A stretch of 64,000 bases of DNA from Collinsella aerofaciens (GTDB taxonomy: Bacteria; Actinomycetota; Coriobacteriia; Coriobacteriales; Coriobacteriaceae): the NCBI RefSeq assembly GCF_015558785.1, contig NZ_JADMOP010000011.1:1-64000 (forward strand), given 5' to 3'. A program made the position numbers and the translations under genes. This document shows positions 12,999 to 41,805 of this stretch, piece after piece (position 1 is the first letter of the stretch; each line of letters begins with the position of its first letter). The notes below the pieces were generated by a model. The model was not told where the DNA came from. It did no database searches and saw only the letters and a list, made by a program, of their open reading frames with translations.

Positions 12999-13031
12999 AT
13001 GTGACAAAGGGACCGTCCCTTTGTCACATTC
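12999..13031. repeat. TGTGACAAAGGGAC palindrome, copy 1
   Basis: GATGTGACAAAGGGAC faces its complement around the centre at 13014-13015. It lies directly after the nitroreductase stop. The same core recurs at 26219, 36813, 38360, 47799 and 54523, in variant form at 15492, and as a half copy at 42911. Confidence 0.8.
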
Positions 13032-36812: not shown

Positions 36813-36845
36813 AATGTGTCAAAGGGACAGCCCCTTTGACACATT
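36813..36845. repeat. TGTGACAAAGGGAC palindrome, copy 3
   Basis: AATGTGTCAAAGGG and CCTTTGACACATT pair; both arms differ from copy 1 in a compensating way (GTGAC/GTCAC to GTGTC/GACAC). It follows the small cysteine-rich gene. Confidence 0.8.
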
Positions 36846-36885
36846 CGCCGGTGGTGCCCCTTCTTTTGCTTATAATCTCAAATCT

Positions 36886-36967
36886 CTGCATTTCATTTGA
36901 TTTTAGGTTCTAAAAATTCTGCGTTTCATCGATAATCAAGCGTATAAAACTTTGCATTTCATTTGAT
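36886..36967 (+). repeat. Three 33-bp-period direct repeats upstream of the first DUF4143 gene
   Basis: CTGCATTTCATTTGAT at 36886, CTGCGTTTCATCGAT at 36919 and TTGCATTTCATTTGAT at 36952: the starts are exactly 33 bases apart. The third copy ends 20 bases before the start codon. A TATAAT at 36871 lies just ahead of the first copy, so the repeats would fall in the 5' leader or the operator region. Confidence 0.75.
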
Positions 36968-36986
36968 GACACTGAGGAGAGAGCCT

Positions 36987-38348
36987 ATGCTGCGCAGGAA
37001 AATAGCGGCAGAGCTGGAGCGTTGGCTGAAGTCTGCCGAGCAAAAGGCCTTATTCATCACGGGTTCTCGCCAGATCGGCAAAAGCTATTCGATTCGCGCA
37101 TTTGGCAAAGCCAGCCATGCAACCTACATCGAGCTTAACCTCATGGAAAACCGCCAGGCAAAAGATGCTCTTCTCGAGGCGCGGAATGCCGATGATTTCA
37201 TCAGCAGGGTGACGCTTCTTTCGGGAAAGTCGATTGCGCCAGGCAAAACGCTCGTGTTTATCGATGAGGTCCAAGAGGCCCCCGACATCATGACGATGGC
37301 AAAGTTCCTTGTTGAGGACGGGAGGTGCCGCTGGGCGTTTTCGGGGTCAATGCTCGGGACTCAGTTCAAGGGCGTCAGGTCCTATCCCGTGGGGTATGTT
37401 CACGAGCTTAGGATGTTCCCGCTCGATTTTGAGGAGTTTTGCTGGGCAATCGGGGTGAGCGAGGGGGCTCGCCAAACGATACGTGACGCGTGTATCAGCG
37501 AGAGGCCCATTCCTGATTACATTCATGACGCGATGATGGCAAACTTCAGGACCTATACCGTTGTCGGCGGAATGCCGGAGGTCGTGCAGCGTTTCCTTGA
37601 CACGCAGGGCGACCTTGCCTCTGTTCGCCAGCTACAGTCAGAGCTCAACGAACAGTACCGGCGGGATATCTCCAAGTATGCAAGCGGGCGAGCCCTTCAG
37701 GTGCAGAGCATCTACGATCAGCTCCCTATTATGCTCGAGGGCGAAAACAAGCGCTTCGTGCTCAATTCCATTGACCCCAAGGCTCACTACGAGAAGTATC
37801 AGCGAGATTTTGTATGGCTTGTCGATGCCGGCGTTGCTCTCAAAGCCGATATCGTAACCGAGCCAAAATCGCCCCTGCTCAAGACGGCGCGGCCATCGCA
37901 GTTCAAGCTATATCAATCGGATGCGGGCATGTTGATGGCGCGTTACCCCGTTGGAGTCGCCCAGGCGGCGTATCTTGATAGCAAGGAGCCCAACCTGGGC
38001 GGCATTTACGAAAACGTGGTGGCCCAGCAGCTGGCTGCCCAAAATCGCCAGCTTTACTACTATCAGACAAAAAAGCGCGGTGAAGTGGACTTTGTGGTCG
38101 ATGGACCGGATGGGACGGCTGTTCCGATCGAGGTTAAATCGGGCTCCTATTACCACGCGCACGCTGCGCTCGGTCATGTGCTTGATACGGCTGAATATGG
38201 CGTAAGGCTCGGGATTGTTTTCTCGAGAGGCAACGTTGAGCGCAACGGAGCGGTTCTCTATTTGCCGCTATATGCGACCTGGGCCCTTTCGGATGTTTTG
38301 GGCGACTTCTGTGCCAAGGGGATTAAGCTGGAGGTCAAGCCGGTCTAG
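36987..38348 (+). CDS. AAA ATPase with DUF4143 C-terminal domain (1)
   Basis: A 453-residue protein. The ATPase part has a Walker A of unusual form (ITGSRQIGKSYSI), Walker B VFIDEVQEAPD and a sensor in WAFSGSMLG. The C-terminal DUF4143 part ends with a PD-(D/E)XK-like nuclease core (E in GGIYENVVAQQL, D in EVDFVVD, then E-V-K in VPIEVKSGS). Such proteins are widespread in anaerobes and archaea, often as several divergent copies; no function is established, although defence or selfish roles have been suggested. GAGGAGAG sits six bases before ATG 36987. Its codon use looks less GC-rich than its neighbours. A second, divergent member lies 700 bases downstream on the other strand. Confidence 0.9.
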   Translation: MLRRKIAAELERWLKSAEQKALFITGSRQIGKSYSIRAFGKASHATYIELNLMENRQAKDALLEARNADDFISRVTLLSGKSIAPGKTLVFIDEVQEAPDIMTMAKFLVEDGRCRWAFSGSMLGTQFKGVRSYPVGYVHELRMFPLDFEEFCWAIGVSEGARQTIRDACISERPIPDYIHDAMMANFRTYTVVGGMPEVVQRFLDTQGDLASVRQLQSELNEQYRRDISKYASGRALQVQSIYDQLPIMLEGENKRFVLNSIDPKAHYEKYQRDFVWLVDAGVALKADIVTEPKSPLLKTARPSQFKLYQSDAGMLMARYPVGVAQAAYLDSKEPNLGGIYENVVAQQLAAQNRQLYYYQTKKRGEVDFVVDGPDGTAVPIEVKSGSYYHAHAALGHVLDTAEYGVRLGIVFSRGNVERNGAVLYLPLYATWALSDVLGDFCAKGIKLEVKPV

Positions 38349-38359
38349 GGCCGGTCCCG

Positions 38360-38392
38360 GATGTGACAAAGGGGCAGTCCCTTTGTCACATT
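38360..38392. repeat. TGTGACAAAGGGAC palindrome, copy 4
   Basis: GATGTGACAAAGGGG and GTCCCTTTGTCACATT pair with one change near the centre. It follows the DUF4143 gene stop by about ten bases. Confidence 0.8.
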
Positions 38393-38952: not shown

Positions 38953-38985
38953 GAGCGGCTTCCTTTCTAGGCGGTCGCGCAGGGC

Positions 38986-40356
38986 TTACAGACTGCTCTT
39001 GAGGCAGTTTGCTCCAATAAAGCCCGCTGCGTACAAGGGGAGGTGGCGCAGCTCGCGCCCGTCATCGGTTTCGCTGCGGGAAAAATTGTTCTCGGACAAA
39101 ATGTAGGCATATGGCGATCGGGCTTTGTCCATAAACGACCCGAGGGTTCTCGCGCGCACGTTACGTGCGGACTTTACTTCGACGGGCACAATTTCCATAC
39201 GGTCGGTCTGAAGTAAAAAATCGAGCTCGCCGGTCGTCTTCCAAGACGACGGCGGCACCCAGTAATACGTCTGCAAGCTATTGCCCGAAAATGCTTGCAT
39301 GACCGAGTTTTCCGCCAGGGCGCCTCGGAAGTCGGAAGATAGCGCTATGGCGGAATCCTCTTTGAGGTCGAGCCAGAGCCGCGGGTTGATGCCGAGTTTG
39401 TAGAACATGAGGCCGGTATCGAGAAGATAGACCTTAAAGAAACTTCCATCTTCGTCGTCGAAGGGAACGAGGGGAGGCTCGATGCCTTCGGTCAGGTTGT
39501 TGACCGATATGATGCCGGCGCCTTCGAGCCAGTCGAGCGGCTCGATAAGCTTGGCGCGACGGCCTCCGCGTTCGACCTCGGAGTACTTGAATTTTTTTGT
39601 GGACGATCTCAGCAGCTGGGACGGAATGGAGCGCCAGACCTTGCGCGCCGCCACGCCGCTGATCCCGTTTTCGGGGTCGGTCATATCGGCGGTATAGGTC
39701 TCGTCGATTTCGCGCTGCTCGACGCGCGCATCCTCGATGGATAACGTCTTGCGATATGCGTTGACGGCGGCGGGCATGCCGCCCACGATCTGGTATCGAT
39801 GAAACAGGCTGAGCGCGGCTTGGTGCGCGGCGTAGGTCTCGAGCGTGCCGGCGTGGGTACGAATGGCATTGGCCATCCGCTCCTCGTCGAGCGCCCAGAG
39901 AAACTCCTCGAACGACATAGGATGCATGGTCTCTTGACGAACGCCGCTGGGAAAAGGCAACTTGCGCTTGCGCGTGGCGACGCCGAGCTGACTGCCGGTC
40001 GCGCATATGCGCCAGCCCGAACCCGAAAAAAAGCGAAGCGAGTTGAGCGCCCGTTCGCAGAGCTGCACCTCGTCAAACAGGATGAAGGCGGTTTCTTTGC
40101 GAATGGGGGTGCGTTTATAGTCTGAGATTCGCGCCACGATGGCGTTAACGTCGTCGGTGGGACAGTCGAACAGCGGAGCGATCAGCTCAAGATCGGTCTG
40201 AAAGTCGAGTTTGACAAACGCATCGCCGGCGATTCGTCTGCCGATTTCCTCGGCAACGTACGTTTTGCCTACGCGTCGCGCACCACGGATGAGGAGGGGG
40301 CGCGACGCGTCCTTTGTCGCCCATGATTCGATAACGGATTCGATTGATCTGCGCAT
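38986..40356 (-). CDS. AAA ATPase with DUF4143 C-terminal domain (2)
   Basis: A 456-residue homologue of the protein at 36987. Walker A is LIRGARRVGKTYVAEEI (GARRVGKT), Walker B AFILFDEVQLCE and the sensor CATGSQLG; MSFEEFLWAL is the family's conserved bridge. The C-terminal nuclease-like core has E in GALAENSVMQAF, D in GELDFLL, and VPVEVKSARN. Overall similarity to the other copy is low, so these are old paralogues or separate acquisitions. AAAGGCGG precedes ATG 40356. Three 33-bp-period repeats, different in sequence from those of the first copy, start 16 bases upstream. Function unknown; see the other copy. Confidence 0.9.
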   Translation of the reverse strand: MRRSIESVIESWATKDASRPLLIRGARRVGKTYVAEEIGRRIAGDAFVKLDFQTDLELIAPLFDCPTDDVNAIVARISDYKRTPIRKETAFILFDEVQLCERALNSLRFFSGSGWRICATGSQLGVATRKRKLPFPSGVRQETMHPMSFEEFLWALDEERMANAIRTHAGTLETYAAHQAALSLFHRYQIVGGMPAAVNAYRKTLSIEDARVEQREIDETYTADMTDPENGISGVAARKVWRSIPSQLLRSSTKKFKYSEVERGGRRAKLIEPLDWLEGAGIISVNNLTEGIEPPLVPFDDEDGSFFKVYLLDTGLMFYKLGINPRLWLDLKEDSAIALSSDFRGALAENSVMQAFSGNSLQTYYWVPPSSWKTTGELDFLLQTDRMEIVPVEVKSARNVRARTLGSFMDKARSPYAYILSENNFSRSETDDGRELRHLPLYAAGFIGANCLKSSL

Positions 40357-40371
40357 GGGGCCGCCTTTCCA

Positions 40372-40465
40372 ATTTCGTGTACTTCAGATACATAGTTTAG
40401 TACGATTTCATGTACTTGGAATACACGAAATAGTAGAAAAGTGTGTATCTGAAGTACACGAAATT
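40372..40465 (-). repeat. Three 33-bp-period repeats upstream of the second DUF4143 gene
   Basis: Units begin at 40379, 40412 and 40445, exactly 33 bases apart (GTACTTCAGATACATAG, GTACTTGGAATACACGAAAT, GTATCTGAAGTACACGAAAT). The outer parts also form an inverted pair: ATTTCGTGTACTTCAGATACA at 40372 against TGTATCTGAAGTACACGAAAT ending at 40464. The block is AT-rich compared with its surroundings and directly precedes the start codon. Confidence 0.75.
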
Positions 40466-40551
40466 GCACTGCTGGAGCTTGCAGGCGGATAAACACTACT
40501 CGTATGGGACGGTTTTCACCGGTTGCTCGCCACCTTGGGCTATGTTCGCCC

Positions 40552-41805
40552 CTATGCCTGCATCCGGGGCTGTGCTGATTGACGACGGCGCTCCCAGCGA
40601 GCCAACTTAATCGTCACCAGCGTGAGCGCCCAGGCCACAAGCGAGAACGCGGCGCCCACTGCACCCACGTACGCAATGCCAATGCTGCTTACCACGGCGC
40701 CGCCCACTGCGGTGCCAAACGAGATGCCGACGTTAAACGCCATGGGCTCAACCGAACTTGCGAGTACCATCGACTTGGGATGGCGGCTGCGTGCCACGTC
40801 CATAAAGTGCGTGATGCATGAGACCGAGAACAGGTACATGAGCATCGCCAGGCTAAAGACAAAGACCAGCGCGAGCGGCATGGCGGCGCCCACGGCAAAC
40901 AGCCCGAGCAGTGCCGCCGCCTGCAGCACAAACGTAACCAGCAGCGCCTTCATGCCAAAACGCGCATCGATCCATCCGCCCAGGATGTTCGAGATCAGGC
41001 AGAACACGCCATAGGCCATAAGTGTGGTGCTCGCCTGAACGGTATCCATGCCCAGCATCTGCTCCAGATAAGGCGTCACGTAGCCGTAGAATACGTAGAC
41101 CGAGCCCACGCCAAACAAGAAGATGAGCATGCCGGTGATGATACTCGGCTCGCGTAGTAGCCCCGCCTGCTCGCGGAAGGTGGCGGGCTCATCGGTCTGC
41201 CCGGCGCGAGGCATAAACGCCACGAGCGCGCTACAGATCAAAACGGCAAAGGTCAGCGTGCCGTACATGGCCACGTGCCAATCGAGTGTGTCGGCCACAA
41301 ACTTGCCAATCGAGGTCACAAAGACCATCGCCACGGAAAACGCGCCGTACACGACCGAGATGGCAAGTGAGGTTTGCTGCGGGGATAGCAGCTCAGGGAT
41401 GTACGTCACGCCCACGGCGAGCAGCGCACCCGAGACAGAGCCCAGGACAATGCGTGAGATAAACAGCACCTGGAAGTTGGGAGCCAACGCCATGACCAGG
41501 TTGCCGAGCACAAAGACGACGCTATAGCACACGAGCAGCTGGTAGCGGCGGAATCGCCCCGTGCTGAGCGCGAGCACCGGCGTCGCGATAGCGTAGACGA
41601 GCGCAAACACGCTGATGAGCTGGCCCGCAGTGGCAAGTGATACGCCGAGTTCCGTCGCCAGGTCGCTTTCGATGCCGATGACCACGAACTCGGAGCAGCC
41701 GAGCGAGAATCCCAACAGCACGAGCAGCGCCAGGCAGAGCCTGGTGCGCGCGGGGGAGAGCGCGGCGGCGGTTGACTTACTTTTAGGTGTGGTTGCGGCG
41801 GTCAA
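40552..41805 (-). CDS. MFS efflux transporter, DHA1-like
   Basis: A 417-residue major facilitator protein with twelve membrane helices. SEFVVIGIESDLATELGVS in helix 1 and LALSTGRFRRYQLL after helix 2 place it in the drug/arabinose efflux branch (AraJ/PbuE-like DHA1). There is no ATG near the N-terminus: I choose TTG 41805 because GGAG lies eight bases upstream; GTG 41814 overlaps that site. The gene diverges from the LpdD-isomerase fusion gene with about 160 bases between starts. Substrate unknown; its position beside the prenyl-FMN locus could mean export of an aromatic product such as a phenol, but that is speculation. Confidence 0.85.
   Translation of the reverse strand: MTAATTPKSKSTAAALSPARTRLCLALLVLLGFSLGCSEFVVIGIESDLATELGVSLATAGQLISVFALVYAIATPVLALSTGRFRRYQLLVCYSVVFVLGNLVMALAPNFQVLFISRIVLGSVSGALLAVGVTYIPELLSPQQTSLAISVVYGAFSVAMVFVTSIGKFVADTLDWHVAMYGTLTFAVLICSALVAFMPRAGQTDEPATFREQAGLLREPSIITGMLIFLFGVGSVYVFYGYVTPYLEQMLGMDTVQASTTLMAYGVFCLISNILGGWIDARFGMKALLVTFVLQAAALLGLFAVGAAMPLALVFVFSLAMLMYLFSVSCITHFMDVARSRHPKSMVLASSVEPMAFNVGISFGTAVGGAVVSSIGIAYVGAVGAAFSLVAWALTLVTIKLARWERRRQSAQPRMQA

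Follow-up and report, generated by a model that had tools for sequence, protein, structure and literature searches.

In many phyla, a bacterial ATPase-nuclease gene that is very common carries, ahead of its start codon, two to four copies of a repeat private to it, spaced about 33 bases apart. In sequence comparisons, part of this repeat can be predicted from one residue beside the nuclease active site; each protein therefore probably binds its own promoter. The member described here lies in a 64,000-nucleotide stretch of a Collinsella aerofaciens genome (the window), which holds two DUF4143 genes, at 36987 to 38348 on the plus strand and at 38986 to 40356 on the minus strand. The second of these, referred to below as the window gene, is a PDC-S01-type gene encoding 456 amino acids, with AAA_14 and DUF4143 domains (Pfam E values of 3e-16 and 5e-18, both above the cut-off). 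PADLOC profile PDLC04786 (PDC-S01) matches its product with an E value of 1e-113 across residues 1 to 447, as a full-length member. The dN/dS ratio among orthologues is 0.07 to 0.11, which reflects purifying selection and shows that the gene is maintained.

The window protein is modeled as a STAND-type ATPase fused to a predicted PD-(D/E)XK nuclease, with the STAND-like ATPase module in residues 1 to about 290 and the predicted nuclease domain in residues 296 (approximately) to 456. The AF2 model (pLDDT of 89) has the NB-HD-WHD fold of STAND NTPases and matches PABY2304 (2qen; Z of 15.1), CED-4 (4m9s; Z of 14.4), and SSO1545 (2fna; Z of 13.8), with root mean square deviations of 4.7 to 5.3 over 267 to 276 residues. 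Plant NLRs are the next structure matches after these three, unrelated AAA+ proteins lie lower, near a Z of 10, and the top Foldseek match is MalT. The STAND motifs, comprising Walker A (G25, R27, G30, and K31), Walker B (D95 and E96), and G192, G193, M194, and P195 (GGMP), are invariant in 34 sequences, and we take GGMP to be the STAND GxP motif of this family. The C-terminal domain modeled alone (pLDDT of 76) matches the PD-(D/E)XK nucleases Can2 (Z of 9.0), McrC (Z of 8.9), and VRR-NUC (4qbn; Z of 8.0), with further matches to EcoRII, BamHI, and Holliday resolvases. In the same 34 sequences, the catalytic residues E349, E377, and E393-V394-K395 are invariant, and D379 is present in at least 90%. 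A phmmer search of PDB sequences with the single window protein gave no useful match, and matches to Midasin profiles were dismissed, as they span just a stretch of about 45 residues that includes the P-loop.

Just before the start codon of the window gene is a private promoter array of three dyad sites 33 bp apart (40370 to 40466, minus strand), comprising a promoter-proximal site (40372 to 40398), a middle site (40405 to 40431), and a distal site (40438 to 40464), with dyad starts at 40372, 40405, and 40438. An earlier note on this DNA had reported repeat units at 40379, 40412, and 40445, carrying GTACTT, GTACTTGG, and GTATCT, respectively, and their positions, their spacing, and their place by the start codon are confirmed. 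That description recognized the repeats and missed the dyad nature of each unit, and the phenomenon was under-called. In the gene direction, the three units read ATTTCGTGTACTTCAGATACACACTTTTCTACT, ATTTCGTGTATTCCAAGTACATGAAATCGTACT, and AAACTATGTATCTGAAGTACACGAAATTGG, and each is a dyad of the form ATTTCGTGTA-N7-TACACGAAAT, complete in the middle copy (ATTTCRTGTA-N7-TACACGAAAT). The exact dyad pattern has a single match in the 64-kb window, the middle site, and none is expected by chance on shuffling. Across 10 orthologues, 79 of 100 alignment columns are invariant in the array, compared with 46 of 100 in the adjoining upstream flank, and one orthologue (L016) has lost exactly one 33-bp unit. 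Among the 67 ATG-initiated window ORFs of at least 200 amino acids, only the two DUF4143 genes show an upstream self-match of at least 14/18 at a lag of 32 to 34. Promoters were assessed by visual inspection together with a basic scoring of -10 boxes, and for the window gene we infer a candidate promoter at 40394 to 40421 (minus strand), lying between and over the sites, with TTCCAA (40416 to 40421) and TAAACT (40394 to 40399) separated by 16 bp. The candidate promoter stretch ACTAAACTATGTAT is invariant in the 10 orthologues, and the gene-distal half of the proximal site departs from the dyad at the TAAACT box, the candidate -10.

The other DUF4143 gene, which the earlier note had called an unrelated paralogue, is a divergent member of the same family; the two proteins are 24% identical, and both are PDC-S01 by PADLOC. 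As that note had observed, the repeats of the two genes differ, and the first gene has its own unrelated array at 36885 to 36972 (plus strand), with TCTGCATTTCATTTGAT-type units at 36885, 36918, and 36951, also 33 bp apart. A dispersed palindrome, TGTGACAAAGGGACTGTCCCTTTGTCACA, which occurs at 14 places in the genome, brackets this first cassette at 36815 to 36843 and 38362 to 38390 and is also found in the window at 13000, 26221, and 47801. Relatives that do not carry the first DUF4143 gene lack both flanking copies of the palindrome, and the filled site has GAGCG on each side, a possible 5-bp target duplication.

The same spacing recurs across the family. For 26 clusters of PDC-S01-like proteins in the genus, scanning 180 bp upstream at a threshold of at least 14/18 gave self-matches at lags of 32, 33, and 34 in 6, 13, and 3 clusters, respectively, and at the doubles of 64 to 68, and none at any other lag from 12 to 69. 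Among 76 loci from Actinomycetota, Bacillota, Bacteroidota, Pseudomonadota, Spirochaetota, Chloroflexota, and other phyla, 26 and 33 loci match at lags of 32 and 33, 31 match at 64 to 66, and five match at all remaining lags, with a shuffle expectation of 0.2 loci per lag; the control region 520 to 700 bp upstream has no 32- to 34-bp peak. In a holdout of 84 new nonredundant homologues, 49 have a 32- to 34-bp repeat and 35 fall below the repeat threshold, so that the array is undetected at the threshold used in a sizeable minority of family members. Most of the plasmid copies examined (from Glaesserella, Acinetobacter, Vibrio, and Parabacteroides) and many members on viral contigs also have the repeat. 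The arrays usually consist of two to four copies, end a median of 38 bp before the start codon, and in many loci adjoin or overlap a -10-like box. Across 83 loci, the sites reach a density of 11.45 per kb within 200 bp upstream of the gene, compared with 0.04 to 0.06 per kb elsewhere, with no enrichment of downstream copies or of copies at element ends. Some clusters have perfect dyads, and many have direct, nonpalindromic repeats of the same period. All seven DUF4143 genes of the source genome have private repeats or palindromes before the start; in the more distant ones (L002, L003, L006, and L007), the spacings are about 22 to 23 or 40 bp. In addition, one cluster (L024, L025, L026, and L065) shows no clear 33-bp array together with in-frame stops within the aligned region, and here the array and the gene may be decaying together.

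The privacy of the sites was searched for two clusters in 45 genomes of the genus. With zero or one mismatch, the window-gene site is confined to exactly the 11 genomes carrying the gene, and within them to the gene itself. For the second cluster, the 45 genomes contain 24 matches to its site, each immediately before one of the 12 cluster members. One orphan pair of window-gene sites, about 32 bp apart, was observed at about 2635 to 2700 of locus L084 (G041:C2:142166), near apparent genes for an SMR transporter and a B12-dependent ribonucleotide reductase, in a genome where no homologue was detected. In genomes having the window gene, the gene and its array have a phosphatase gene on one side and an MFS gene on the other, and the segment that is present or absent as a unit (38967 to 40588, no strand assigned) is replaced by about 55 bp in about a dozen relatives and contains no other gene. 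At this locus, no repeat is present at the empty site and no target duplication at the filled one, and neither element ends nor repeats downstream of the gene, as sought for a transposon or homing element, were found. In one relative (L045, genome G020, around 1425 to 1525), the empty site holds a different sequence instead of the usual 55 bp or so, suggesting a shared insertion spot.

The covariation of protein and repeat was analyzed in the subfamily whose sites share AAAARTGT, of which 68 discovery sites were alignable; the site of the window gene is of a different form, and the code described here is that of the AAAARTGT form. Mutual information in the discovery sites led to the column of reference residue 401, which in the window protein is Arg401 (codon at 39154 to 39156, minus strand), six residues past the catalytic Lys395. 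Gln at this position goes with AAAG-type outer half-sites and Lys with TTTT-type outer half-sites, and in the holdout, 10 of 10 Gln proteins had A-type and 6 of 9 Lys proteins had T-type sites (P = 0.003). With 118 sites and protein identity controlled, column 401 scores highest of all 348 columns against site columns -12 to -9 (z of 8.7, with the next at 3.0), reference residue 403 leads for -8 to -5 (z of 4.3), and the leading columns for -4 to -1 include, weakly, residues of the 370-376 loop (z of 2.5 to 2.9). In all 17 sequences that differ at this residue from their nearest Gln/Lys neighbor, the site goes with the sequence's own residue, the 17 not all being independent. Residue and site class agree in 47 of 52 cases, which was reached in 0 of 5,000 simulations (maximum of 39) on a tree built without the tested segment; the tree has 14 changes of the residue, 17 of the site class, and 19 of the two jointly. 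A candidate contact between Asn at reference residue 238 and C at -4 held in 8 of 8 discovery cases and 1 of 8 holdout cases and was withdrawn, and mutual-information matches at nearly invariant columns (e.g., reference residue 308, with one Arg in 68) were set aside as effects of single sequences. CCGG-family restriction enzymes likewise have base-reading residues right after the catalytic lysine (PMC6344858). There is thus strong support for the earlier proposal of a private set of sites for each ATPase, which holds as a rule across many phyla. The checks suggested with it came out in its favor, as the repeats covary with the protein (residue 401 against site class, 47/52), come and go with the gene across relatives, and are not found beside other genes, barring the one orphan pair. 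For these same reasons, the description of the locus as "self-recognising" was a good inference; its "selfish module" part is one possible reading, and its "defence" part is a candidate role, nominated by PADLOC.

We read the observed architecture, privacy, covariation, and co-inheritance as those of a STAND-type ATPase-nuclease gene that regulates itself through a private operator array, with a probability of roughly 0.75. As in an autoregulator, the sites lie over the gene's own promoter region and covary with the protein; the protein most likely uses its nuclease domain to bind this promoter, which it probably represses. Neighboring protomers bound to the array would sit on the same face of the DNA, the 32- to 34-bp spacing being about three helical turns, and may cooperate via the ATPase module; the bound complex would occlude the promoter, and the nuclease would be kept scarce and parked. 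Phage or other stress might then disturb the complex, lifting repression and letting the ATPase assemble an active nuclease, a step that is more speculative than the others. Private sequences would prevent cross-regulation between the paralogues of one cell. A bolder version, which we hold to be doubtful, is a minimal NLR-like switch guarded by DNA, in which the nuclease domain reading the private promoter array would be the sensor, and the loss of the parked complex, or the cutting of its own address, would trigger the response. If this were true, thousands of these genes would be orthogonal protein-DNA pairs with a simple residue code.

The repeats could instead be operators of a separate host regulator, with the nuclease protein not binding them, and multirepeat operators for a small repressor do exist in defense islands, as for RptR. 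However, the site varies with the gene and not with the host and tracks a residue of the nuclease protein, the cassette at the locus carries no other gene, and a near-exact site occurs at no other place in the genome (two clusters, 45 genomes), and the data speak against this explanation, which we rate as improbable. They also speak against a role of the repeats as RNA, in leader hairpins whose structure sets the period. The perfect dyads of some clusters would fold as hairpins, but many clusters have the same period in direct, nonpalindromic repeats, the fixed 32- to 34-bp period fits DNA turns, and the array contains or precedes the candidate -10 boxes, which would leave the upstream copies untranscribed; an RNA function is thus very improbable.

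An account that is left standing, and that we find unlikely, is that the array serves a selfish or homing element as its target or address, used by the nuclease to tell self from non-self, in gene conversion, or in excision. The gene and array are indeed present or absent together at a single site, plasmids and phage-derived contigs carry family members, conservation extends to the nuclease motif, and COG1373 is among the horizontally shared gut genes listed in PMC10782964. Against it, a repeat is lacking at the empty site and a target duplication at the filled one, and the sites are upstream only, not at both ends, with the copies over the promoter region and close to the start codon.

According to PMC12988326, PDC-S01 is a PADLOC phage defense candidate and the fourth most common defense across prokaryotes; PDC candidates are nominated by genomic association, with experimental validation pending for most (PMC12988326). 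The fixed promoter architecture and the candidate specificity residue offer a direct way into the mechanism of PDC-S01, as together they predict the DNA target of each protein. The use of a nuclease domain to read the sequence of its own promoter would, if confirmed, be unusual; the family would then provide a large natural collection of orthogonal DNA-binding pairs. No promoter array or site code was found in the portions of the open-access literature mentioning PDC-S01, DUF4143, or COG1373 that were covered.

By profile, the window gene is a member of PDC-S01, a single-gene system with an ATPase and a predicted PD-(D/E)XK domain. The predicted fold over residues 1 to about 320 is common to STAND NTPases (PABY2304, SSO1545, CED-4, plant NLRs, Avs, and MalT), among which MalT binds repeated DNA sites; in contrast to these proteins, the window protein has no separate sensor domain, and the sole partner seen is its own promoter DNA. 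In the Escherichia coli defense-island repressor RptR, three direct repeats overlap the island promoter (PMC12255303), but RptR is a small separate regulator and not a nuclease, and its 9-bp repeats, around a conserved TAGCTA, are not private. The CCGG-family enzymes NgoMIV, Bse634I, and PfoI share the PD-(D/E)XK fold and the location of base-reading residues just past the catalytic lysine (PMC6344858), whereas the window protein is fused to an ATPase, its cleavage activity is putative, and its sites are few, private, and located in its own promoter.
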